Below are positions 13,574 to 60,900 of a stretch of 64,000 bases of DNA, piece after piece. Below the pieces are notes generated by a model. That model ran no database searches and was not told where the DNA came from. It saw nothing but the letters and a program-made list of their open reading frames with translations. The stretch is from Branchiostoma lanceolatum. Taxonomy: Eukaryota > Chordata > Leptocardii > Amphioxiformes > Branchiostomatidae. The position numbers and the translations under genes were made by a program. The stretch's first letter is position 1; the number at the start of each line of letters is the position of its first letter. Where the stretch lies: contig NC_089739.1 in assembly GCF_035083965.1 (NCBI RefSeq), positions 8,482,001 through 8,546,000 of the forward strand. The letters run 5' to 3'.

Positions 13574-13835
13574 TATTAGTGATGTAGCATTAGCATATCT
13601 CCCTCAATATCCCGTTTTTAAAAGAAACGGATACAGGATAATACAGCGGATAAAGGCGAACTAGCGTTATAAACGTAAATGGAAAGTACCTGTTCTGTGT
13701 GTGCGCTGAAATTTTTACATAGACAAGTCTTTTACTTTTCAATCGAAATAGTTTGTAGATTACGAATCTCTAACCTAGGCATAGCAATGTTGAAGGTTGT
13801 GTCTTGTTACTGATATCATGATTTGTGTCAGATCT

Positions 13836-16800
13836 TTTCAGAAAACATGATGAAATAAAACCAGTACATCAGCAGGAGGTCCCAAAAGCTACATATTCAT
13901 ACAGAGAAGATCTGTCAAACCTTGCACGGGATACCAAAGGGTACAAAAAACCCCTACCGGCATTGAAAATGGCCTCGTACTCAACAAAGCAAGTAGCAAG
14001 AAAATTCCACCCAACAACGCATGGAAGCAACGTTCACATAGAGTATGAAGGTTTGGTAGCTCGCAGTGATGATAGTTCTAAAAATAGTATTTGCTTCAGC
14101 GAACTGCCAATCAAAATCGGAGAGAAGATCCACCTAAAAACAATTGAGAGCAGAAGGTTTAAAGGGGCCACCAAGATAGGATTCACCTCAAAGAATCCAG
14201 ACGAGATGACAGCGAAACAGCTGCCAATGCATTCCTACCCTAACCTCAACCGTACAGATGGATTTTGGATAAAGCCCTTACCTGAAGTGTATGGCCACAA
14301 TGAATATGCTGTGACATTTTGCGTGGATGACAGCGGAAATGTGTTCTTTTCCATCAACGGAGACAATGAGGTATTCTTCTTTGACGGTGTGGATGTCTCC
14401 AGGGATCTGTGGGCAGTTGTGGATATACATGGCAGCGCAGTGGCTTTGCAATTCGAAGGTAATTCACATCAATTATCAGCATTCTAATTTCAGCTAATAC
14501 ACTGGACCCTTTTTGGTCAAAATCAGTAGAGTAATAGGTAAAAGTTGCCATGGCAACTTTGATTGTGGTTCACATAAAACTTCCGCATTTTGAACGTCAA
14601 AGTAGAATATCTACTGCTTTTTCTTTATCAGGAATCATTTAAGCATAACCTTTGTGCTTTTTTTTAATACTTAGCCATGTTCGATAAGACAAATAGACGC
14701 TATCCATCTTTCTGACGTTGTATGTGTTCACGATCCAGACGAAATTGTGCAGCCTGCCCCAAGAGAAGGGATCCGAGAAGGCGACCATGTGATGCTAACG
14801 GCGGAGAACATGGAGACTCTCCGTGTACTACAAGATGACCATGGTGACTGTCCTCCTGATATGGAAGAGGTAAATTAGGATTCAGGCGTGATTGTATCGT
14901 CATCAGGTAACTTTGACAAACTTGGTCTATTTCGCATACTAACCCAGTGAATAACTATGAATAGATATAGAAAGTATTACTAAAATCTGTGCTTTTCACT
15001 ATTGCAGGGAATAGGAAAAATAGGGATAGCAAGAGAAATTGATCACAATGAAGATGTCACCGTATACTTCCCAGAAATTGACAAAAAGTAAGTATTTTGT
15101 ATGACCTAATCATTTTGATACGTCAAAAAGTTCATTTGAAATATATATATAAGGTATTCCTATTCATTAAACCCTACATGTAATATGTACAAATCTACAT
15201 TACAGTTCAAACTGAGTTTATTTTCATCTAATACAATAACAACAAATGTGCGGTACACTATTTACTGTGTCAGAGTTGAGCTTTCATCCTATCAAACATT
15301 TTACATACATACCGTTTACAATCAGGTGGCGTCTGAGTCCAGCAGTCTTACAAACGGTTGAAAATGTTGGTTCGGATTTTGTGACCAGTTTAGAAGGTGA
15401 GTTACATGAAAGTTTTATGCCTCTGCTATTTTGCCATGTAATCAATGTATGCACAACGTCCTCAACCTCTGGTTTACAACTTTAAAGGGCCTTTGGATAT
15501 TGAATCATATATAAAATTTGTATGCCAAATTTGCATTGCGAATATGCATCGCAAATTATCACCGGTCGGCTGTAGCGCAGTTCTTTTTGTTGCCAGCGAG
15601 ATGAGGGATCTGTTTTGGTGTAAGTAAACTATCGTATTCTGTCTGGAGATGTTGGAAGTTGCAAATATTCATCGCAAATATGTTAGAACATATTTGAGCA
15701 TCCCTCATGTCAGTATTTTTTTCTATAACATGCTGTTGTGAACAATAGTCACTATCATGAATGCTATGACAAAAACTCATATATAGTGATCCAGTTCAGT
15801 GGTTCACAGCTGCCAAGTGTTCTTGCTTTTTTAAGAGGTAGCGATGGGCACGGGTCTTAAAGGATTGAAGGCCCGTGGGCTAATGTCTCGAACGACACTG
15901 TCTGGGAGCGCGTTCCAGGGGCTGGTTGATGCATGTGTCTTGTATGAGTTCTGGAGACAGGTTCGGTGAGAGCGTGTCGACTAGGCATAGCTAGGGTGGA
16001 GCGTGTTGTACGCCTGGGTGCGAACGGCTGAGGTAGCAACTTCTTCAGGTCAAATAGGCACTGGTTTGTCATAGAGACAACGTTATAGTTCAGGTATGGA
16101 TGTCAACAGGAAGTTGCATAGGGGAATATCAGTTACAGTAAACAAGCTAGCTTAATCCCGTATTTTTTTTAGATTCCAAAATGTGACCTACTGCTGTGCT
16201 GTGCTGTTGATACCATAATGTGTGTTCTGGTTCTATCATATTCAAAACTTATCTGTAAACAAGCATAGCCTCTCAGTATAGTACGCTGATGTTGTCATGA
16301 TTTTAGGAATTTGTGAAAAAGTTGGTCACCACTGGAAGATGGGACTCTCGAGGGTCTGCACACAATGTGGAGAATGTACATCAAAAGGGGAGGAATGCAT
16401 CATGAAAGGCTTGCCACTTCGCCCTTTAGGCAGGTAATTAATTTAAAATTTGTCATTGCTACTCTATCATATGCATACTTTCTGCTCTTACTTACCAGAA
16501 GATGGGAACAACATCGAACATACTGTAAACGCAAGTTTGATAAAAAATGGCGGTTCAAACCACTGACATGTAGGGAATTATACATCAAAGTCGTTACCAT
16601 TTGGTGTGGTGACAAGTACACATCTTTGCAAAAATGTTACAGTGAACAGTTTTCATATTTGAATTCCTATGACACCAAATCTTCATTATTGCAGCACCTG
16701 TGGATGCAGACACGAAGGTAAGAGATGTGCAAACTGTGGGCTTTGCCGCACTTGTGCTGGATTACGTCATGAGGACCTGATAGAGTCTTTGAGAAATCAA

Positions 16801-36504: not shown

Positions 36505-37218
36505 CGATTTACTCCGCCCACCACTTACGCAACTGTATCTTCAGGTCTTATCTAAGTACTGTATTACAATCGTTCCAAAAGGTCTTATCTAACTTTCTTG
36601 TGAATCTCATTACAGTAGCCAGGTTTGCGTAACACCGCTCCTTTAAACTCGGACGGACCGTCTTCGGGAGTCACTTGGTCTACAGAGGTGGCAACGTCGC
36701 AACTATTCTGACATCTTAAGAAAGAAATTTTAGGTAAGTGTTTCAGTTATTTGAAATTCGTAAGCGTTGGGGGTATTTGAAGAACCCGAGTACAACTTTT
36801 TATATGTTTTGTTCGTAAGCCACGAATTATGACCTCCTTGGTGCACTGTTGTCATTAGTTAAAACTGCTTTACTCCGCCCACCACTTACGCAGCTGTATC
36901 TTCAGGTCTTATCTAAGTATTTGCACAATCGTTCCAAAAGGTCTTATTTAACTTTCTTGTGAATCTCATTACATTAGGTTTGCGTAACACCGCTCCTTTA
37001 AACTCGGACGGACCGTCTTCGGGAATCACTTGGTCTGCAGAGGTGGCAACGTCGCAATTGTTCTGACATCATAAGAAAGAAATTGTAGGTAAGTGTTTCA
37101 GTTATTTGAAATTTGTAAGCGTTGGGGGCATTTGAAGAACCTGAATACAACTTTCTGTATGTTTTGTTCGTAAGCCACAAAATTATGACCTCCTTGGTGC
37201 ACTGTTGTCATTAGTTGA
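36505..37218. repeat. Approximately 358-bp tandem duplication
   Basis: The block from ttactccgcccaccacttac (about 36509) to ggtgcactgttgtcattagtt (about 36859) recurs from about 36869 to 37215 at high identity. Confidence 0.85.
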
Positions 37219-37279
37219 AACTGTTTCTCTCATTTTTGACCTCAATATCTTCAAATTCTGTGGTTCAAATTGGACTTTA

Positions 37280-38752
37280 TTGTATCAAAATGTGCAGAAT
37301 CTAGTACGTAATGAAATGTATGATTTTCATTAATCTGTATTTTGGCGATCTCGACTAATACTCCAAAGCGCCAGGGTATCGTTACCAAAATCGCAAAGAC
37401 CGATAAATTATGATCATGATCACGAGGCTCTGATGTCACGCGGCAATCCACGTGCGCGCACTTTGGCCACATCTTGAAAACTCAGACTTTTTCCAGCTTT
37501 TAACGATGATATCTCAAAATTCTGTGGAACATATTCTGACTTAAATACCTCAAAATTTACTAAATCTAGTTAGCCATTACATGTAAAAGTTTTTTTTAAT
37601 AAACTTTGCCTCGAAGTGATCTCGGGTTATGCTGCAAATTTGCAGAATCTAGTACGTATCAAAATGTGCAGAATCTAGTACGTAATGAAATATATGATAT
37701 TCATTAATCTGTTTTTTTTTTGCGATCTCGACTAATACTCCAAATCGCCAGTGCAAATCGCAAAGACCGATAAATTATGATCATGATCACGAGGCTCTGA
37801 TGTCACGCGGCAATCCACGTGCGCGCACTTTGGCCACATCTTGAAAACTCAGACTTTTTCCACCTTTTAACGATGATATCTCAAAATTCTGTGGAACAAA
37901 TTCTGACTTTAATACCTCAAAATTTACTAAATCTAGTTAGCCATTACATGTAAAAGTTTTTTTAAAATAAACTTTGCCTCGTAGTGGTCTCGGGTTATGC
38001 TGCAAATTTGCAGAATCTAGTACGTATCAAAATGTGCAGAATCTAGTACGTAATGAAATATATGATATTCATTAATCTGTTTTTTTTTTGCGATCTCGAC
38101 TAATACTCCAAATCGCCAGTGCAAATCGCAAAGACCGATAAATTATGATCATGATCACGAGGCTCTGATGTCACGCGGCAATCCACGTGCGCGCACTTTG
38201 GCCACATCTTGAAAACTCAGACTTTTTCCACCTTTTAAAGATGATATATCAAAATTCTGTGGAACAAATTCTGACTTTAATACCTCAAAATTTACTAAAT
38301 CTAGTTAGCCATTACATGTAAAAGTTTTTTTTTAATAAACTTTGCCTCGAAGTGATCTCGGGTTATGCTGCAAATTTGCAGAATCAAGTACGTATCAAAA
38401 TGTGCAGAATCTAGTACGTAATGAAATATATGATATTCATTAATCTGTTTTTTTTGCGATCTCGACTAGTACTCCAAATCGCCAGTGCAAATCGCAAAGA
38501 CCGATAAATTATGATCATGATCACGAGGCTCTGATGTCACGCGGCAAACCACGTGCGCGCACTTTGGCCACATCTATCTTGAAAACTCAAGAATTTTTCT
38601 ACCTTTAAACGATGATATCTCAAAATTCTGTGGAACAAATTCTGACTTAAATACCCAAAAATTTACTAAATCTAGTTAGTCATTACATGTAGAAGTTTTT
38701 TTTCATAAACTTTGCCTCGAAGTGGTCTTGGGTTATGCTGCAAATTTAATAC
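37280..38752. repeat. Four-copy satellite, unit about 368 bp, upstream of the P450 gene
   Basis: The units start near 37282, 37657, 38026 and 38393 (tatcaaaatgtgcagaatct). Each contains the palindrome tgatcatgatca, the block tgatgtcacgcgg (37431, 37798, 38166, 38532) and ccacgtgcgcgcac. These hold CRE/ATF-like (TGATGTCA), dioxin-response-core-like (GCGTG on the minus strand) and E-box (CACGTG) sequences. Regulatory use is inference. Confidence 0.85.
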
Positions 38753-45292: not shown

Positions 45293-45506
45293 CTGAATTG
45301 TGATAAAAGATCACTGGATGGAATGTGGCTAATTTCTTCACGCAAAAAGAGCTGATAAATATTAATATAACTCTTCACCTGTTTTACCCAAAAGTTGGCT
45401 CTTGAAGTGGTTCATATATTTGTGACGTAACATTCAACAAACACTGGTCTGACCCTTCTCGAAGTTCCGGTAAGTGCTCAGAGTTCAAAATATCTCGCTG
45501 GAAACG

Positions 45507-47546
45507 ATGGCGTCCAATGCGATGAGCGAAATTACCGAGGAATTCCTCGTCTGCCAGGTCTGTTTGGAGGACTTCAAGCAGCCTAAGATGCTGCCGTGTC
45601 TTCACACCTTCTGCCAGCCGTGTTTAGAGAGGCTCCTGGCCACAGAGCCGGTAGGGAAACTAGACTGTCCGACATGCCGACAGGAAGTGCCCCTCCCCCA
45701 AAACGGCGCCCAGGGGCTGAAGTCTAACTACCTCGTTGGTAAACTACACAACATTTTACAAAAACAGCCGAAAGGGAAAGGGTTAACGTCACATCCACCA
45801 GAGAACGGGGTCACATGCACAGCTTGTGAGGCTGGTGACTCGGCTCAGTTCTACTGTGTGGAGTGTACCGACTACCTGTGTCAGAAGTGTAACGACGCGC
45901 ACAGCCGACTCAGAGCAACTCGATCCCACAACGTCAGAACAGTGGCGGAGCTGAAATTGGGAGGACTGCCAATCAAGCTTCAAGCAAGGAAGACTTCTAA
46001 ATGCGTGGCTCACAATGAACTGCACAAGTTCTACTGCGATACCTGTCACTGGGTCATCTGTTTACACTGTGTGGTAACGGCGCACAAAGATCACCAGTAT
46101 GTGGAAGTAGAGAAGGTAGCAGAGAGGGAGAGGGCAGAGCTGTCGAGAGTGCAAGCCGCAGCAGACCTGCACGAGAAGTGGATTGAAAAGCTACGGTCGG
46201 TGGAGGAAGAGTGGTCTTCACAGGTACAGCGTGCAGAAGAGCAGATAGAAGAACAGGAAAGGACCATTATTGAAACCGTCAAAAAGGTGAAAAATAACAG
46301 GATCAGCCAGCTTCATGCCATGCATGCTACTAGGAAGAAACAGACGGAAGCCGCCATTGAGGCAGCTGAGATGGACCTGGCCTCAGCCAAGAGCTGTATC
46401 CAGTTCACCGGCAACGTGTTGGACTACGGGAGCCCAGCGGAGTTCATGTCGGTGGCCGGCCGGACGGAGCAAAGTGCAGACAAGAAGATCGCAGAGAAGG
46501 CTGAAATGACCAAAGGTTTTATGAACTTAACCTTTGACTCTCAGGCTAGGGATGTTGAGGAGAAATTGTTAAAATTGATGGTAATAAAGCAACAAGCAGT
46601 ACCGATGCCAAATGCGCTAATGCTAGCTCGACCGAAAGTTGCAAGTGCCTACAGACAATTAAAAGCTATTGACAACCATGGCGGGAAGAGTGGACATGGC
46701 AGAGACAATCTGCAGCTGCAATCGCTTGTTGTCATCGCAGAGGGAGACATTGCAGTGGCTGACAACGGAAACCTGCAGTTTTTTGGCAGAGATGGCTCTT
46801 TCAAGATTGAGAGGAGGGTCAGGCTGGGTTGGAGGCCATGTTGTTTGGGCGTCTTGGCAACTGGTGAGCTGTTGGTGACAGGAGACGGACACAAGATTCA
46901 CGTACTGGACAAACAGGGGAGAGGACGTATCATCCAGGTGACAGGAGTTGCAGAGGAACTGCAACATATGACCACAGACGGCATTGCTGTTGACGGTATG
47001 GGGCGTATTGTCGTTAATATCGGGTACCAAGTCTTTGTGCTCAATTCAAATGGTGACACTTTGCTTAAGTTCGGTGAAAAAGGTAATGATTATGGTCGTC
47101 AGCAGGGTTTGAGGTTCCCCGTCCGCATTGCAGTCAACAGCAACAACCAAATCATCATCTGCAGCAGAAACAGCATGAAGATATTCGACCCCACCGGTCA
47201 TCACCTCTTCTCGGTCGGGGCACGTGGCTCGGGACCTGGTCAGCTGGACGACCCCCAAAGTGTCACAACGGACAATGATGACAACATCATCGTGGCCGAC
47301 ATGGGGGCTGGATCCCAGAACAGAGACAATCGTGCTTACCCTTTCAGTCCGGGCGGAACGTCTAGGGCTGGATCCCAGAGCAGTAACTGTCGTGTTTCCC
47401 TGTTCAGTCGGGACGGTACGTTTATCAGGGACGTGCTGACAAAGAAGGAACACGGACTAGAATCTCCAAGTGGCCTGGTACTGTCTCATGACGGACATCT
47501 AGTCGTTTCTGAAGGCAATTCTCTTAAGATTTTCGTCCCCAATTAA
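45507..47546 (+). CDS. TRIM-NHL protein, intronless (probable RING E3 ubiquitin ligase)
   Basis: Single-exon frame of 679 residues from the ATG at 45507, which has a good context (acgATGG); an upstream in-frame ATG at 45474 is possible but weaker. Residues about 16-57 form a C3HC4 RING (CQVC, C.HTFCQPC, CPTC). B-box 1 lies at about 104-145 (CTAC...CVEC...C.KC) and B-box 2 at about 165-205 (C..H...FYCDTC...C..C...H..H). A coiled coil spans about 210-330, and C-terminal NHL-type beta-propeller repeats about 390-679 (GL.FP..IAV...I.I.., G.LDDPQSVTTD.DDNIIVAD). No filamin domain is seen between coiled coil and NHL. An in-frame 60-nt duplication (47307-47366 and 47367-47426) adds 20 residues in one propeller loop. 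An intronless coding region suggests a retroposed member of an expanded family. The target is unknown. Confidence 0.9.
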   Translation: MASNAMSEITEEFLVCQVCLEDFKQPKMLPCLHTFCQPCLERLLATEPVGKLDCPTCRQEVPLPQNGAQGLKSNYLVGKLHNILQKQPKGKGLTSHPPENGVTCTACEAGDSAQFYCVECTDYLCQKCNDAHSRLRATRSHNVRTVAELKLGGLPIKLQARKTSKCVAHNELHKFYCDTCHWVICLHCVVTAHKDHQYVEVEKVAERERAELSRVQAAADLHEKWIEKLRSVEEEWSSQVQRAEEQIEEQERTIIETVKKVKNNRISQLHAMHATRKKQTEAAIEAAEMDLASAKSCIQFTGNVLDYGSPAEFMSVAGRTEQSADKKIAEKAEMTKGFMNLTFDSQARDVEEKLLKLMVIKQQAVPMPNALMLARPKVASAYRQLKAIDNHGGKSGHGRDNLQLQSLVVIAEGDIAVADNGNLQFFGRDGSFKIERRVRLGWRPCCLGVLATGELLVTGDGHKIHVLDKQGRGRIIQVTGVAEELQHMTTDGIAVDGMGRIVVNIGYQVFVLNSNGDTLLKFGEKGNDYGRQQGLRFPVRIAVNSNNQIIICSRNSMKIFDPTGHHLFSVGARGSGPGQLDDPQSVTTDNDDNIIVADMGAGSQNRDNRAYPFSPGGTSRAGSQSSNCRVSLFSRDGTFIRDVLTKKEHGLESPSGLVLSHDGHLVVSEGNSLKIFVPN

Positions 47547-48682: not shown

Positions 48683-51600
48683 TTTTTGATGACTGGAATA
48701 TCTGCGGCACTGGCGGCCATTGCGGCCCTTCTCGCAGAAGTTCTTGTAGGCGTGTCGGACCCTGAGCTCGACCCATAACCGTTCACGGTGGAAGGAGAGT
48801 CACGATTGTTTGAGCGTAGTCGCTTTGGTGGCGACTCGTTCTCGTACGGTGGCGGCGGCTGACTGCGTACATTGTTGGGGGTTCTGGTCCTTCTTTCGGT
48901 GGAGGTTGGCGGACTGCCAAAATTTGTGGGTTTCAGTCCTGTGGAAAAAACGAGAAAAAATTAGTTTCCGATTATGGTCCTGGGAAAATTATGGTAGGTA
49001 GAAAGGAATTCTCTTTAAGATTTGGCCATCAACATAACAGGGTGTCAACATAAAGGGGACCAAGGTTTAGTGACTTTTTCTATTGTAACAGAAATGAGAA
49101 CATTCTATGTTTACATCATTCATATGTCAAATCAGACTTTTAGACCCATTGCCGACCCAAAACAGGGACAGGTTTTTGCTAGGGTTAGTCGTGTAACCGG
49201 AAACACAATGGTTTTTGTAGGCCTTACCCAGTCTTTTCTCGATGTCCCTGAACTGTTCCTGGGCTCTCTAGGATTTAAGCATGATGGAACAAAACAAAAA
49301 GGGGCAGGATACGGCTGTGTGGCGTTTATATATCGGTTGCAGCCAGATATGCAAAGACTATGTGTAACAGACCGTTTGGTGTAATATAACGAGCTGCTGC
49401 CACGCCGCGTGCCTGCGAAGCTGGTGTATTACGCCTAATGGCAGTTGTACCGGCTATACAGATACAGATAATTACAGCTACAGAGCAAACTGCACCTCAT
49501 CATCATCACTAGCATCATCATCACTAGCATGACCATCATTATCCTCATATCTATGTAATAGCACATATAATCTACCCAGTCTTTTCTCAATGTCCCTGAA
49601 CTGTTCCTGGGCCTCCTGTAGCTCCCGTCTCTGCTGCTGTTTCTCCGGAAGCTCCTCTGCCTCCAGCTGGAAGTTCAGATCATCTTCCGCATTTATTCTC
49701 TTGATCATGGCTTCTCTGTACTTCTCTAGTGTGTCTACAGATGAAAAAAAAAACACCCAAAATTAATGAAGCTCTATCAATATCTGATTCATTTATCATT
49801 AAAGATTCTTCTTCTACTTTATTCGCATGTAATTCCTTTTAAAATAATTGTCACAAGAAACTACAGTTCCCTTTATAAAATCTATCTGTAATGTATTTGG
49901 CAAGACAAGCTTTCAATATCCAATACCTCTTTCAATACCTCTTAAAATTCTTAATTGCTCTGATATGTCTTATATACTATTCACTGTACATACAATTAAA
50001 CAAATTGGGATCATCAATTAATTTAGACACAACAATCATGTCATGAAGGTTACATGTAGGTAAGACTATAATGTAATCATAAATTGAGGCATGCCAACAT
50101 GATTACACAAAATGCTGACATCACGAGCATTATGCACAAAAAATTCTGACATCATACCTATCTGTGTACACAAGGCATGATATGCCAGGGGGAGGGGGGT
50201 ACCAAAATGTCTCCCTTCATTTTAGTCTATCACTTGTTGACAAGCAATATCAACAAAAATAATGACATCACAAACATCTATGCACAAAAAATGCTGACAT
50301 CATACCTATCTGTGTACACAAGGCGTGATATGTTGAGGGGAGGGGGGCACCAAAGATGGCTCCCTTCATTTTAGACTATCATTTGCTTACTAGTAAATCA
50401 ACAAAAATGATGACAACACAACACATGTGAACAAACAATGCTGACATCATACCTATCTGTGTACACAAGGCGTGATATGCCAAGGGGAGGGGGGCACCAA
50501 AAATGGCTCCCTTCATCTTTTCCACAGGAATGGCCTTGTTCTGCACTCCCCCAAACTTCCCGTTACTCCTGATCCTGTCTCCTGATCTGGTCAGGAGGGT
50601 TGGACAGTGGGTGATCTTTACTACCTGCAACATGCGAGGGAAAAGGAAACTTAAGAACATGTGCTACGGTTCCTTAGCTATCTCTTCGAAGCAAGAGAAA
50701 GTTTTTGGTGCTTACAAACAAATTTTACAATGAAGAACAGATGAGGAACTTTAGTTTTTAAGATTCTTAAAAGATTGTTAAGTAAGAAATGTAGGGAATA
50801 GTTATTCAACAACCACAAGTACATGAAAACTGGACTCATGGCTGAAGGACAAGAACATGCATGGAGGGATTTCTTCAATACACAAGGCACATTCAATATT
50901 CTACATCAATATTAAAGTCCTTTGATTTTTGAGTCATAGGAAATGAAAATCACCTCTTGTCTGTAGGCATTGGCATCATCTAGTGTGTCCAGAATAACTG
51001 TTTCTCCTAGCAGCATACCAAACACTGGAAGACAGAAAAGGCAGTGTTAACACAGTCAAGCTATACATGCATACCGGTAGTATGTCACTGTCAGTCACCA
51101 AAGCTGAGATGCTTTTGTACTATAGTTTGATGAAGTTTCCATCTATTTGTCATAGCATGTACACATGTACCAGATAACATTTAATACTTTGCCTAAAACA
51201 GACCAAAAGTACAAAATGGCAAGATAACTCTCAGGCATGAACTTAATCCATGAAGATTTTGTACTGATTTATTTTGTTGAAAGCTTGGTGATTTAGTGTT
51301 CATTGGTATTGTTGTCTGACACTGTATCACTTCTGTAAGAAAACATATACCTACAAAATCACCACTGCTACCACAAACTACTCTAAGAAGGATAAAAAAT
51401 TGACAAAAGTTTATCCAAGTCCTAACCATACCCAGTTTGCAGTTGTCGGGGTCCTGCGGGAAGATGAGCATGTCTCGTGCATAGACTGGGTTTCCTTTTG
51501 TCACAAAGTTGGACCTGTTTCCTCTCAGGTGGGGGAGTGGTCTGCAACACACAAGTCTCAAGTTTACAATTTCTTAGAAGATAATTGGTTTAACTGTTCT

Positions 51601-54582
51601 CTACATTCCCTACTATCAAACTTCAAAGTTAAAAACTTCACTGGTAAATTACCAACATATAAAAATGCAGTCAAACCTGTACAAGGGACCACCTCTACAT
51701 AAGGACAACCTGGCCATTGTGGCCACCTCTTAGTGGCCCTTAAGATTATTTTCCCATTGACACAAGCTTTAGGAATCCTGTTTTCAACAATTTCTTAATT
51801 CTAGTGGTCACTATACACAGGTTTTCCTTCCAATGTATGATACTCCAAAGTCTTAACACCCCTTCAACTTCATGTTGTTGCATCTACCTTTCATACTTCT
51901 AACTTAAACCTAGACCACACCATTACATCTAGAGGGGTGACCAACCTGTTCCAGTCTGGGAGGTTTCGTCTGTAGATGGAGTCTAGCGGCAGGACTTGCT
52001 GACGACCATGCGACCCCGTGTAAACCTGCTTGGCCTTGGCGGTGGTTACCGTGACGACACAGTCCATGTCGCTAGCCATGTGCCAGGATAACACGCGCGC
52101 GATGTCGTCATCTTCAACCAGAGCAAGGTGGCCGATCTGTAGAGATCACATAGTTTACTAGAAATAAAATCATCTTAAAGGCCTATATCTAATAAAATGA
52201 AAAAGAAAAGCCTACTCTACCTGTGTGCCTAACTTCAGGTTATTTAGCCCCAAAATGACAGAGATGAATCAATTTGAACATTTTACAAGAGAAGAAGAAA
52301 AAAACATAAGGAAAAACAATATATTTGTTTGTCATCTTCTACCAGGGCAAGGTGGCTGATCTGAGGTGGGGAGGGTGAAGTTAATACATCCAGAAAGTCT
52401 TTTGTTTGTTTGTTTTGCATAAATGGTAAACAGCCTTTAGGCATAACACACCAGATTTGTACAGTAGGTACAAGCTACGTTAGACCAGACCGTGAGGTTT
52501 GATCCACTCACACCAGGATAGACCCCTCCTCTTTCTGATAAGCACGGTGGGATTTTTAATGTGCTCGAGGAGTGGCTGTCCTCAAACACAGGACCTCTGC
52601 CTTGGCGTCTGAGAGTACATGTACATCTTGATCTTCTACGGAAGGACTTCTGCCACCACAAAAATGGAATTGTAAGAAATATTTCTCTCACCTTCCCCAT
52701 GATTTCCTGGTCCCCTTTTGGTGCAGGGTTGAGTCCACACTGTCTGCGGGGGCTGTTCAGGGTCTCGTCTCTCTCCTGCATCCGGATACCCAGCAGTTCA
52801 TCTACCTTCTCGATCTGTCAACAAAGAAACAGAGAAAACCTCTTTTCATTAAAATCACAGTAAATAACAGATTGGTGGAGGATCATAAATGATGGAAACC
52901 TTGTGTAGAACATCATACTGCCCAAACGGCTGACTAGCCATGGGACTGATGATGTGAGTGTGAAATATCAGACCATCATTTCAGAAAAAGTAGTGTGAGG
53001 AACAAGTTGATAGGCCAGTTTTGCAAGAAAAAAACACACATAAATTACTACAAAAAAGTACTACTAGTGACCTTTGAAGGGATATCACAGCGGCAGAATC
53101 TAGGCTTAAGGTTTGTACAAAATTTAAAATCCCGCCCCCCCCCAAACAAATTATCATAAACATATAATCTTGCGTAAAGTTGACTTACAGACTCCAAACA
53201 GGACGCCGGTACTGCCTGGTTCCTCAGCTCCATTCTAAGCGACTGTTCAGACTGCTTGGCCTCATGGACAGATACTGTGGATAGAAACAAACAGAAAAAA
53301 GCTCATTATTATGTATATCTGCCCTTTGGTATGACACACCATCTTTACAGGCTTGCGATGGCAGCTTATCATATCACACTGTACGACAACATGGTGAAAA
53401 ATCACACAACACTGGCATTTGTGGAAGGTACATGTATTATGAATGATTGAGTCTTGTTATTCACTTGGATGTATTTCAATATTTGAATAAAACATGCCAC
53501 AAAAACTGTTTTCGAGAGTAACAATCTATGCCTTTTATTCTGTATCTGTATAGCCGATATAACCGCCCTACGATGTAACACACCAGCTTCACATGTATAC
53601 GGCAGCAGCTTGTTACATTACACTGAATGACCTATCACTCCTAAGCTTTGCATGCATCATTAATGGTATAAAGTTCCTTACTTTTCATCTCACTGATGAG
53701 CTGCTGTGTGGTGTCGAAGAGTTGTTTGTAGGTGCGGATGGTCTGCAGCAGGGCGTCTTTCTCACGGGTCAGGTTTGCCATCTCTTCCTGCTTACGTACA
53801 TCTGTGTGGGGGGAAACAAAATAAAATTAAGTTCAGATTCAAAACTTACTAAAACGAAGTGTGTGGCCACTATCAGAAATGATTTTGAACATTAAAGGAG
53901 CAGGTTAACCAACCAGCTCCAAGGACAGACACTAGTGTTAACCAATCAGTACCAGAGACAGACACTAGCGTTGACCAATCAGCACTAAGGACAGTGAAAA
54001 GTACTGCAGACTAACTTCTTGCTGATTACCTCAAACTGTTTTTAGTATGACATTTGATCAAAATCCACCTTGCAAATATATCATGTACTTGTACTTGTTT
54101 TGCATGTACATTCAATACTATCAATCACATTCAAAATATTACTGGTTCTGTCTCTAGTTTTTCCTGTTATTTTCAGAACTGGGAAGACTTAAAAATCAAT
54201 TGCAGGAGAGATGTCGAGCCTTCCTGACATATTCAAATGCAACAGCCCTACTAGATACCGAGGTAACCTACTGTTATAGAACATGAAGGAGAGGTTGAAG
54301 GCAGGAATGGGGTTGGTTCTGGACAGCTGGAGGCTCTTGGGGCGGCACTGCAGGAAGTACTGCTGCCCATCTCTGCCTGGGGAGTTCTGCTGCATCGTCA
54401 CATTCTGCAATAAACAAAAGAACACTTTTTCTAGCAAATACAGCATGTTTCAGTAAGCACTGAAGCAGGGAGAGAAAGAGAATCCATAAGTGTCCAGAGT
54501 ATTCGATCAGCACAAAGGACAATGTATTTGAACAAGTGAACAAAAAAGTGCTCAGTCTGAGACAAAAAGAGAGAGAGATAGA

Positions 54583-54656
<74 letters not shown>

Positions 54657-54893
54657 AAGAGAGAATCCAGTAGTGTCCAGGAGTATTCGATCAGTACCAA
54701 GGGCAGTGTATATGAACAAGTGAACAAAATAGTGCTCAGTCTCAGGCAAAAAGAAAGTGAGAGAAAGAGAGAGGGAAAGAGACCAACTTGTGTCCGGGAG
54801 TGTTCAATCAGCACCAAGGACAGTATATATGAACTAGTGAACAAGATAGTGCTTAGTCTACTCTCAGTGCACAGAGAGAGAGAGACAGAGAGG

Positions 54894-54925
<32 letters not shown>

Positions 54926-57900
54926 AAGGAAGAGGAGGGAGAGAGAAAGAGAGAAAGGAAGAGGAGGGAGAGAAAGAGTTACCTGTACAAGTGCGACACC
55001 CCTGACCAGCTCCACAGTCATCTCCTTGGTCCCCCCCACCATCTGTGGAACCTCCTCCTCCTGTGTTTTCTCTCCAGTCACCTTCACTACTACTTCTCCA
55101 TTCACATGTTCACCTGCAGGGTTATCATATTGGTCCTGCAGAGAAAAACAACAAACAAAGAAACAAATGTAAAAGAGGCCAGCTTTGGGTTTAAAAAGCA
55201 ATGCTGCTTAAAAGCATATATTGTAGAATTTTGGCACCGCAACTGCAAGTAACTTTAATTCATAAATCTCAATGTTTTTGGGCACTTGGTTAACTTAATA
55301 TATTTTTAACATATTTGCATCATTTTTCACATTTCCAGCATTGGTTAATGATGTGAAAGCAAGCCATGGGAAGTTACACCAATCAGCACCAAGGACAGAC
55401 ACTACAGTTAACCAATCGGTAGCAACAACCGGCACTGGTATTAACCAATCAGCACCAAGGACAGGCACTGGTGTTAACCAATCAGCACCAAGGACAGCTA
55501 CTGGTAAATAAACTATTTAGCACCAAGAACAGACACTAGTGTTAACCAATCACCCACAATTACAAGACACTGCTCTTTACCAATCAGCACCAAGGACAGT
55601 GAAAACAATTTACCAAAAACACAATCCCCCAATAATAAGAAGGTGATAAAAAACACAGACAAATGTCTACTTATAGAAACCTGTCATTAGACACCATCCC
55701 ACCTTTAGGATGAGTTTGAGCTGCCTGACGAGAGTCCTGCTGGCTGACCGTGCTGTGTTGGACACAGTAGGGGTGCCTGGAGCCGCCTCAGGGGCCAGCT
55801 TTACTGGAGCACCCGGCTGGACATTGATGGCAATCTGGGGGGAAAAAGAAGAGTTTTATAGAGGCAACTACAGTGATACAAGGAGCACTGAAGATCATTA
55901 AGTGTTAGAAAGTCCACCAAAGACTGTGCAAGTATATAGCCTCATCACTTACTACATACATTGTAGTCTCTTGTTGGGTCTATTGTCTTTTACAATTGTT
56001 GAGCAATAAAGCTATTTTATCATATCCACATAGGATCTAAAGTGCATACGTAACTGAACATTTGGTAATTTGTAATTCATTCACCAACCATTTGAACTTA
56101 AAAGGCTGTTCCTGTGATTTTGAATGGCCTGAAATTTCTATTTTGTGCCTTTTCAGTCACGATGTCTGTATCATATGTCTATGGCCACTATGCAAATGAT
56201 TTGAAAAGTACTGAATCATCATCAAAGTATTTGAGACATAAAAATGCATTCGAGTGCAGAGTTACTGAACATTTACATATTTGAATACCATATCAAGGAC
56301 TTACTAGGTTGCTGTATATAATGTCCTGTCTGGACACGTTGTACTGGAACATTATGTTGTGGATACCAGACTTTTCTGGTACTCTCCTATCCCTGCAAAC
56401 ACACGAGAAGAAGTATGGTTAAAGTTACAAAATGGTCCCCAATAGTGTTGATACAGATTACAACTTACAATACATTGGACATTGAAGCAAATTTTACTAC
56501 AAAACAAAACAGTGGTTTCTGTTAATTCAGAGAGACACTATTGAAATAAATCTAGTGAGCAATATGTTGGATATTGAAGCAAAGATTTTCCACAAAACAC
56601 CAATAATGTAGTTCTTGTCTGTCTAGTTTTGAAGTTAGAATTCTAAAAGTGAAGACATCAGAGGACAAACCTGAAGTAAAAGTGCCCTTTCTTGTCTGAT
56701 TCTTTTATAGGATCGGGATCAAACACAAAGGCCTGGAAAAAATGCAATTCAGATAACATTAAACATAGTAAACAGTCAGTGGAAAGCAATCAGTCTTGTA
56801 GCTTGTAATGAACGTAACATGCTTTTTTTGTTCATTATATTCCCTCTACATTTGATAATTTCTAATCTAAAAAATAAACAAAAACAATTAAATGACAATT
56901 ATGAGTACATTTACAAACATAACGAAACAAACATATGTCACAAACAAACAGAATGCTACCTACACATAAGTTAAGGTGATACGTCCTGGTAGAACATTAC
57001 ATAATACAAAATAAATCAAGCAACTGGATAAATTCTCTAAAAAGTTAGATGTTTTAGATAGCATCCGCTTTCACTAGTAACTGAAATAGTGAATGCTATC
57101 TGAAACTCATAAGAGCATTTATTCAGTTGCTCGATTTATGTTATATTGTGTAATGTTACCTCTAACTATCTACCTACCACAGGAGGCGGTCTCTTCAGCA
57201 GTTGTGGGCCGTCCTGTTTCCACACTTTCATCCTCACATTACTGATGGGCACTTCTGTTATCACACTGTCGTCTTCTGCACAGATGCTCACTACAAACTC
57301 TGTAAGAACAGATAAACACACATTACTGATGGGCACTTCTGTTATCACACTGTCGTCTTCTGCACAGATGCTCACTACAAACTCTGTAAGAACAGATAAA
57401 CACACATTATTGATGGGCACTTCTGTTATCACACTGTCGTCTTCTGCACAGATGCTCACTACAAACTCTGTAAGAACAGATGAACACACATTATTGATGG
57501 GCACTTCTGTTATCACACTGTCGTCTTCTGCACAGATACTCACTACAAACTCTGTAAGAACAGATAAACACACATTACTGATGGGGACTTCTGTTATCAC
57601 ACTGTCGTCCTCTGCACAGATGCTCACTACAAACTCTGTAAGAACAGATAAACACACATTACTGATGGGCACTTCTGTTATCACACTGTCGTCTTCTGCA
57701 CAGATACTCACTACAAACTCTGTAAGAACAGGTAAACACACATTACTGATGGGGACTTCTGTTATCACACTGTCGTCCTCTGCACAGATGCTCACTACAA
57801 ACTCTGTAAGAACAGGTAAACACACATTACTGATGGGGACTTCTGTTATCACACTGTCGTCCTCTGCACAGATGCTCACTACAAACTCTGTAAGAACAGA

Positions 57901-60900
57901 TAAACACACATTACTGATGGGGACTTCTGTTATCACACTGTCGTCCTCTGCACAGATGCTCACTACAAACTCTGTAAGAACAGATAAACACACATTACTG
58001 ATGGGGACTTCTGTTATCACACTGTCGTCCTCTGCACAGATGCTCACTACAAACTCTGTAAGAACAGATAAACACACATTACTGATGGGCACTTCTGTTA
58101 TCACTCTGTCGTCCTCTGCACAGATGCTCACTACAAACTCTGTAAGGACAGATAAACACACATTACTGATGGGCACTTCTGTTATCACACTGTCGTCATC
58201 TGCACAGATGCTCACTACAAACTCTGTAAGAACAGATAAACACACATTACTGATGGGGACTTCTGTTATCACACTGTCGTCTTCTGCACAGATACTCACT
58301 ACAAACTCTGGGAACAGTACAAAACTAGTCAGAAACATATAGCAACTACCAAAAGGCTATACACACCATACAGGCATAAGGTAGGAACCCTCAGCCATTT
58401 ACTTAAGAAAGGTTACCTCTTTTCAAGCATATGACTGTTAAGAGAATGATTTAAGATGATAGCTTTACATGAATTTTGCAGGTTTGTGGATTACTGTTTT
58501 TAGAGATGCCCAATTCAAACATCTTCAGATCTATTCTTTCACTTTCTATTCTATCACATCAAACAATGCATACAACAATTGCATGAAATAAAGGAGTTCT
58601 TGTGAAAATCTGCATGTGATACAATGTAAGCATTGAGTAACTTAAAGAAGAAATGCACAAACCAGACCAACTTTGGAATCTCCATAAGTCATGTATTACT
58701 ATCCAAGATTTTAGGAACTGAGTGCAAGTCAGTTGCATATTCAACGACTATTGGCTTTAACTATAATATTCATGATAAATAACAATGAATACCTGTTAGC
58801 TTGTCCCCAGCAATGTAGACAGCGTTCCTGTTATATTCCACATTCACAGCAACTGGTTTGGTGGGATCAGGTACTATCATTACTGTCAGCGTTGGTCCTT
58901 CTATCGTCTTCTTTCCTATCTGGGCTTTTGGTCTGAACTCATAGTCACCTCTGCGCAAAAAAGAACATTTCATGTTGGGTCTTAGGTTTTAATCATTGTA
59001 ACTCTCAATCCTCTATAACTTGCCAGTAAATGGTTAACAGCTAACTAGAAAGCTTGCTAAACTATTTAATCCTGCAATATTTTTTAGCTACTCTTCTTTC
59101 CATTAAACAAGATTTCTTACAAAAAACACCATCACCACTGACTGTCCATCCCCTGAGCTTTTGAAATAGATTAGACATCAGAAAGTTCTAAAAGTGCATT
59201 CTTTTTTTTTACAGTATTTCTATACTACATTTTCACAACCACTTTGCACTTGTCTATGTCATACATGTACAATTTTACAAGAACCTACTTTTTCCCTGAG
59301 GCCGCCATGATGCCAAAGTTGGCTCGACCGCTGGCATCAGTCTTCACACTCTGGGGTGCTGGGGTCAGCTGGAAGGGGAAAATACATGTTAGGAAGGAAA
59401 ATGTCTGAACATTTGTACAATTAAATGCTAAACTTGCTCACTAATTGTCTTGATGCACCAGTGCATATTTGGTGAGTAAAGAAAAAGATGAAAAGATTAA
59501 AAGTATCTAATTCTTTTAATCGGTAAAACGTTGATTAATTTTTGCCTCAGACAATCTGTGTAAAAGTTGGTGAAGCTTGACAACAAAGGTAGATGCCTGT
59601 ATATTCTGCCTTTTATTTGGGAAGTCCTTGTTTTACTGCAATACAACCTTCTGTATGAAGAATTTTGGAACAAAACTCATATATAGAATGGGACAACACG
59701 CTACTACTAGAAGGAAATGTGGCTATACAAATGTATAACAAAACTGACCTCCAGTCCTTTGTCCTTGTCCAGTTGAACTGCGACCCCCGACTCTTGTGAT
59801 GGGTTCCCGGCAGCATCAATCAGCTGAACCACCAGCGGTTTGTCAAACTGGGTCCCATTGTACACCATCAACGGCTGAAACAAAGGACACAGGATGGTTT
59901 TATATGCTTCAACATGGACTTCATATTTGTAGGTTTTCTTGTCTATAGGGCCCAAAACAATGGGCTTGTAGTACATAATGTATGTCAGATTTACCTTGAT
60001 TACCAGATTTAACTTGTAGTAAACGACATTGTTCACTTGAATTTTGAGGAAGACTGCAGTAGGACAGTCAAACATCCAACTTGTTGAGTTGGAACAAAGT
60101 TTTAGCACTGTACAACATTTCATTCTTTCTCAACTTTTCAGACTATACTTCAAGAACTGACTGAAGAATGTACCCAAACAAGATCCTTTGAAAGCTAAAA
60201 TGGCAAGAGATTGGGGAATAGTTTCTGTAGTTTTGATATACATCTGATGTTCCACCTACCCCATCATCTGGCCAGTCTATGAGGTCCATCCCGGCAGGCG
60301 GGCCCGGCACCAACACCAGCCGCACAAACTCCTGCAGGTCCTGCCACGTCACGCACAGCTCCTTCGTACCTAGGGGGCCTTTACTGTGGAACCTGATGTT
60401 ATTCAGCACAAAGTGATCTGATTTCTAGAAAGAGAGAAAGAAAGAAAACTTCGAAACTCGTCTTGTAACATAACAAGGTTTTCATTGTTGGTTCTTCCTG
60501 TTTGTTTACCAAGCAACAGCTATTTCCAACCTAGGGGGCCTTCACTGTGGAACCTAATGTTTTTGAGCACAAAGTGATCTGATTTCTAGAAAAAAAGAGG
60601 AAAAAAAATGAATCCTGTTGTAGTAACAACAAGGTCTCCATTTTTTACACCAATCAGCACCAAGGGCAGACACCAGTGTAGTCAAATCAGCACCAAGGAC
60701 AGATGCTGGTGCTATCCAATCAGAACCAAGGGAAGACAATAAAAGAAAAAAAAGGGAACATACATCTGCTGTTACTTTCATCAAGCTGTTGTTTACCTTG
60801 TAGTATCTAGGACATATAGGTCAGCAAGTTTCCTCTTTTTTCTGTAGCAGGGTATATTTTTACAGGGAGGGGTTGCTAGCATTGCAAAAAACAGGTGTAG

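Follow-up and report, generated by a model that had tools for sequence, protein, structure and literature searches.

The 64,000-nt stretch of the Branchiostoma lanceolatum genome analysed here (hereafter the window; assembly GCF_035083965.1, contig NC_089739.1, positions 8,482,001 to 8,546,000) carries on its minus strand an SMCHD1-like gene, and within this gene a tandem array of 84-bp units that straddles an intron-exon boundary and repeats, in a single reading frame, the end of the intron together with the start of the exon. All coordinates given below are positions within the window, and the features discussed are collected in Table 1. Exons of the gene were chained using generic splice matrices and codon use taken from one open reading frame (ORF) of the window plus five exons; of two runs, one ended the chain at 49478 and one extended it to 48670. 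Exons 56732-56671, whose coordinates come from a preliminary description of this DNA, and 56392-56305 were both skipped by the script and set by hand, and exons 62334-62189, 49267-49228 and 48938-48670, proposed only at a lower penalty, were excluded as uncertain.

The SMCHD1-like identity of the gene, already proposed in the preliminary description, is supported by its predicted hinge part of 181 residues, which matches the SMCHD1 hinge in PDB chain 6n64_A with an E value of 1.6e-79 (query positions 1-171) and the Pfam family SMC_hinge (PF06470) with an E value of 1.9e-07 and 31.9 bits against a cut-off of 22.5. SMCHD1 has an N-terminal GHKL-type ATPase domain, which, should this gene have one, would be encoded beyond 64000, outside the window on the gene's upstream side. 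Pfam returned no family over the array region of the predicted protein holding a single copy of the unit, and the earlier placement of the array within an 'Ig-like' region is thus not established; upstream of the array there are weak matches to Invasin_D3 and Big_1, neither of which reaches its cut-off. A PDB search with the 475-aa single-unit part that precedes the hinge gave no match, the array alone lying outside that search. When the repeats were retained in the protein, Pfam reported UpxZ over them (36 bits, cut-off 21.2) as well as RIH_assoc (25.7 against 28.5) and Galaxin_repeat (12.9 against 28), the latter two below their cut-offs; for none of the three did any stretch pass on its own, and all were set aside as repeat artefacts.

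Across the array, Tandem Repeats Finder (TRF) reports a period of 84 with 97% matches and 0% indels, and each unit is built from 63 nt of exon start followed by a 21-nt spacer that closes in a 3' splice site. A direct scan located 13 acceptors of the form AG|AGTTTGTAGTGAG at an exact spacing of 84 bp, with first exon bases at 58307, 58223 and so on down to 57299, in agreement with the preliminary description of 13 acceptors inside an in-frame 84-bp repeat. That description also assigned a splice-site spacer to every acceptor, which holds for 12; the first acceptor is preceded by gactagttttgtactgttcccag, a different intron end rather than a copy of the spacer. Its translation of the spacer as CLSVLTE is likewise correct for most copies, which read CLSVLT ahead of a shared E, the exceptions being CLPVLT in 2 of 12 and CSSVLT in 1 of 12. 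At the edges of the array, unit 1 differs from the other units by 1-4 nt, and unit 13 has the same exon part as unit 12 and then runs into GTGAGGATGAAAGTG... where a spacer would stand. Some variants are confined to one unit (E>D in unit 2, S>R in unit 3, L>S in unit 10) and others are common to neighbours (S>P in units 6-7, S>N in units 10-11), and units 4, 5, 6, 7 and 9 do not differ in their exon parts. Allowing three mismatches or fewer, the spacer pattern has 12 matches in the window, whereas 100 shuffles gave none; that the tandem array is real and beyond chance is beyond doubt. Folding of two array units as RNA gave nothing notable (z -0.75), Rfam returned no match at its gathering score within the window, and viral contigs contained no exact match to the array-unit pattern.

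The exon upstream of the array ends ...CTAACAG|GT, and every acceptor completes the same codon, G|AG (E), in a common phase. Between 58305 and 57178 one frame of the minus strand runs through 376 codons without a stop, and depending on the acceptor the exon would measure 122, 206 and so on up to 1130 nt, from which the range of 40 to 376 residues in 28-residue steps given in the preliminary description follows. This openness is weak evidence for translation of the array because the antisense strand is also open, over a 409-aa stretch, and because 737 of the 1058 21-nt stretches that precede AGs in the surrounding region (the array's own AGs included) are stop-free in the needed frame. The consensus unit is stop-free in two of six frames, one per strand, and random placement of the observed variants introduced no stop in 75-78% of trials. 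Since one open unit whose length is a multiple of three suffices to render all units open, we rejected openness as proof of coding.

All 13 acceptors appear to be of splice-like quality, as supported by an acceptor position weight matrix (PWM) on which 8 of the 12 spacer sites, the last acceptor among them, score 5.47 and the other four 5.19, with the first acceptor at 4.70. Eighteen acceptors of the gene model span 1.5-9.9 on this scale and a nineteenth, at 51541, scores -0.3; outside the array, 25 of 927 AGs reach 4.70, the model's own acceptors included. Candidate branch sites were present in all three acceptor contexts examined (58307, 57299 and 57467). Use of the last acceptor would give a 122-nt exon, within the 62-191 nt of the 18 other internal exons, and the exons opened by the other 12 acceptors would run from 206 to 1130 nt. 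When the single-unit protein was aligned to a human SMCHD1 sequence, the alignment was gap-free over the junction with 93 of 247 positions identical; its 5 gap positions all fall elsewhere, and we treat this alignment as a lead rather than a test. From the gap-free junction, the ancestral exon probably held one unit. Donor-like sites also occur within the units, GTA|GTGAGY scoring 0.70-1.82 and AAT|GTGTGT scoring 1.40; these do not share a frame with the acceptors of the array itself but, by phase, would do so with exon 56732. A separate donor-like site, AAT|GTGAGG at 57238 on the minus strand, lies within the authentic exon and scores 3.33 against 3.39 for donor 57178; if used, it would take 60 nt off the exon without a frameshift, removing residues that are presumably kept in human SMCHD1.

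The array is accompanied by other boundary duplications in the same gene. Comparison of 40 exon edges of the SMCHD1 gene against the window revealed three more, at donor 50453 and at acceptors 60424 and 52136, and the same search found no duplication at the edges of exon 51541-51432. The donor-side array repeats the 3' end of exon 50624-50453 together with its donor, AGATAG|GTATGATG, with donor copies at 50453, 50306 and 50158 and a mean column identity of 91%; reading through past donor 50453 meets two stops before the second copy, and the third copy is out of frame. Acceptor 60424 with its flanks (60489-60355, 135 nt) is copied at 60645-60516 with 79% identity, and a TAG at 60427 closes the exon's frame. 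The shortest of the three is a 33-bp relic (52363-52331) that copies the acceptor CAG and hinge-exon start at 52136 with 91% identity, the frame here being closed by a TGA at 52148. In all three sister duplications a stop interrupts the exon's frame on read-through, and boundary duplications closed in this way persist in the gene that carries the open array; mirages in this gene, as repeats of this layout have been called in lancelets, need not be coding.

The placement of these duplications carries little information of its own. Whole-region self-comparison yielded seven local-duplication loci, and in three of them a copy encloses a boundary (the 52136 relic, which starts only 3 nt ahead of its boundary, is not among the three), against a chance for a random copy to hold a boundary that rises from 0.08 at 33 bp to 0.54 at 250 bp; this is at most a mild excess. 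Two of six arrays touch a boundary, as expected by chance (P of at least two, 0.96). These figures use the exon list without exon 51541-51432. The position of the array as evidence for a mirage was rejected, its placement being near the chance level, and an assignment to the mirages would have to rest on anatomy.

That anatomy has a published counterpart in the lancelet globin gene BflGb6, in which an intron end and an exon start are repeated in tandem as a 'mirage' minisatellite (PMC3087553). The SMCHD1 unit spans an exon-intron boundary, as defined by our gene model, and 13 of 13 units carry an AG (PWM 4.70-5.47). We consider it probable that the array is a mirage-type minisatellite and that most transcripts join the last acceptor with the upstream copies spliced out, a reading built on what is directly established here: the array, its phase, the open frame, the sister duplications and the match to published anatomy. 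A boundary segment made up of approximately 21 nt of the 3' splice site plus 63 nt from the start of the following SMCHD1 exon would have been duplicated in tandem; slippage or unequal exchange would then have multiplied it until there were 13 copies of the exon start, and kept the copies alike. The identical exon parts of units 4, 5, 6, 7 and 9 are what such homogenisation predicts; at the edges, where mirage clusters are less homogenised, unit 1 differs from the rest but unit 13 matches unit 12 in its exon part. The last acceptor, at 57300-57301, is most likely the one used, because the resulting 122-nt exon is normal-sized and because the junction aligns without a gap to human SMCHD1. In most transcripts, exon 58950-58793 would be joined to this acceptor, exon definition pairing donor 57178 with the nearest upstream acceptor, and the 12 upstream copies would be removed inside a 1493-nt intron. 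With a stop-free unit whose 84 nt are divisible by three, a transcript wrongly joined to one of the upstream copies would gain 28n residues and stay in frame, so that the array would be well tolerated and minor longer isoforms in 28-residue steps may leak.

Several observations weigh against this reading. The sequence scores do not favour the last acceptor among the 13, and the gene-model script itself chose acceptor 58223, treating 12 units as coding, because it rewards open sequence. Joining to the last acceptor would create the longest intron in the gene model, whereas the first acceptor would give a 485-nt intron that falls inside the 278-718 nt of the 18 other introns. The first acceptor also has the better branch-like site, CTGAC, 20 nt upstream, with another AG standing between the two. 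In local alignment the spacer scores 20 with the flanking intron end and 13-23 with the ends of 18 other introns; no special likeness to the flanking end is thus detectable, and an origin of the spacer from that intron finds no support. According to the globin paper, mirage copies could serve as cryptic splice sites (PMC3087553). Finally, differences among units 1-12 are skewed towards synonymous changes, which make up 0.59 of pairwise codon differences, compared with an expectation of 0.32 (P 0.063) when variants were kept within exon part or spacer and 0.26 (P 0.026) when they were placed anywhere, in 4000 trials per null over 8 variable sites in 12 units. Among all results, this skew alone hints that the copies are translated; it stems from a small number of events and can also be explained by conversion from the constrained exon copy.

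An alternative in which several of the 13 acceptors are substantially used, with SMCHD1 length varying in 28-residue steps and copy number varying in the germline, could account for this skew and would accord with the close scores and common phase of the acceptors, the branch-site candidates in each context examined, the 376 codons without a stop, and the report that human tandem repeats at boundaries can alter splicing (PMC2812944). We regard it as rather unlikely, since reverse transcription PCR (RT-PCR) of the globin genes and data for Adh3 are said to suggest undisturbed regular splicing at mirages (PMC3087553), none of the three sister duplications is readable in frame, and openness is cheap on the antisense, pre-AG and random-placement counts given above. 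The proposal in the preliminary description of a length-variable protein made by a coding variable number tandem repeat is, for related reasons, not supported: the layout is that of a known mirage, the sister duplications are closed, and the presumed human protein aligns without a gap.

Constitutive use of the first acceptor, by which the whole array would be translated as 376 codons of one 1130-nt exon, benefits from the CTGAC branch-like site, the ordinary-sized 485-nt intron and the open frame. Against this, the exon would be about six times the 191 nt that the 18 other internal exons reach at most, 12 competing acceptors follow downstream, and 12 extra 28-residue units would stand where human SMCHD1 presumably has none; we judge this outcome very improbable. 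The copy number of 13 is that of the assembly, and the longest exact self-repeat within the array, at 189 bp, means that short reads could misjudge it. One mirage also seemed aberrantly assembled in the B. floridae draft (PMC3087553). A true locus with fewer or more units, the assembled number being partly an artefact, nevertheless appears to us highly unlikely in view of the unit-specific variants in units 2, 3 and 10 and in the pairs 6-7 and 10-11; the variants private to single units or to pairs of neighbours argue against a pure artefact.

Table 1. Positions of the SMCHD1 gene features discussed, within the 64,000-nt window
Feature	Position	Strand	Basis and remarks
Upstream exon, ends ...CTAACAG|GTATTC	58793..58950	-	gene model
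First acceptor AG	58308..58309	-	PWM 4.70; different intron end
84-bp tandem array	57235..58310	-	TRF and unit table; 12.8 copies
Last (13th) acceptor AG	57300..57301	-	PWM 5.47; adjoins authentic exon
Authentic 122-nt exon, shared E + 40 residues, donor GTG|GTAGGT	57178..57299	-	gene model; colinear with human SMCHD1
Downstream exon, 20 residues	56671..56732	-	coordinates of the preliminary description; not chosen by script
Two-copy acceptor duplication	60355..60645	-	acceptor 60424; edge search
Short relic duplication	52107..52363	-	acceptor 52136; edge search
Exon with weak sites	51541-51432	-	acceptor -0.3, donor 1.1 (chaining script)
Donor-side boundary array, 147-148 bp, 2.8 copies	50109..50516	-	TRF and edge search

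Other repeats and genes lie in the same window. A related 33-bp minisatellite with a AATCAGCACCAAGGACAG-like core (TRF consensus) occurs in three different introns of the SMCHD1 gene, at 53904-53994, 55373-55599 and 60652-60738, and a core similar to it is found in a 117-bp repeat at 54673-54901. Outside the gene, a 60-bp tandem duplication at 47305-47421 on the plus strand sits inside a RING/B-box/NHL (TRIM-like) ORF at 45474-47546 (TRF, Pfam). Two long tandem arrays, of 355 bp x 2 and 368 bp x 4, occupy 36508-38747 (TRF), between decarboxylase-like exons (Pfam, just below cut-off) and P450-like exons, and a plus-strand ORF at 13822-14487 carries a Neuralized domain (Pfam E value 4.5e-30).

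The presence of 13 near-identical acceptors in one intron offers a natural competition assay, in which the spliceosome may select the first acceptor, the one nearest to the donor or any of them, and, with all acceptors in a common phase, the mRNA could survive whichever of them is taken. Given a stop-free unit that is divisible by three and carries a complete 3' splice site, one may envisage a coding-compatible mirage, a 13-acceptor splicing ladder producing SMCHD1 proteins that grow in 28-residue steps before the hinge, with the number of steps changing between individuals, and possibly between cells of one animal, through expansion and contraction of the array; we consider this idea improbable. 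Four boundary duplications that have decayed to differing degrees within a single gene for a chromatin regulator could further provide a series for studying intron gain from mirages.

With both the structure and the idea already in print, the SMCHD1 array is of a kind that has been described before. Among the literature matches listed there was no report of an SMCHD1 mirage, the gene having been named in only part of the search. In the lancelet mirages (BflGb6, BflGb9 and Adh3, with TnC and PGBD5), units span the exon/intron boundary and many carry splice signals, as here; Adh and TnC are cited as further lancelet cases, and the 60- and 108-bp repeats over splice sites in PGBD5 come with splicing that was predicted rather than tested at the repeats (PMC3902484). 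BflGb6 is especially close in combining an intron 3' end with the 5' part of an exon in near-identical units (81-100% identity in BflGb6), and differs in unit size, with 150-160 bp in 6 or 3 units, and Adh3 with 10-72 bp, compared with 84 bp in 13 units in SMCHD1 (PMC3087553). Two further papers, on C. elegans minisatellites near alternative splicing (PMC4039745) and on amphioxus huntingtin scaffolds with tandem repeats and assembly errors (PMC2206037), had no bearing on the question in the parts concerned. Human segmentally duplicated genes with variable internal repeats likewise hold minisatellites in coding exons or at their boundaries; repeats at exon-intron boundaries can alter splicing there, some in frame, and for those internal to coding exons the transcript may either retain the repeat or lose it by splicing (PMC2812944). 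The human cases are recent paralogs with transcript evidence, whereas the SMCHD1 array is read here from genome sequence. In the tandem-duplication model of intron gain by Rogers, discussed in the globin paper (PMC3087553) and for Drosophila elsewhere (PMC2891723), duplicated splice signals in coding sequence supply the raw material, as they do in this array; unlike in that model, the SMCHD1 array shows no new intron, and the extra copies probably just lengthen the existing one. What sets it apart from the mirages compared is that its unit is a multiple of three, contains no stop and keeps all of its acceptors in one common phase.

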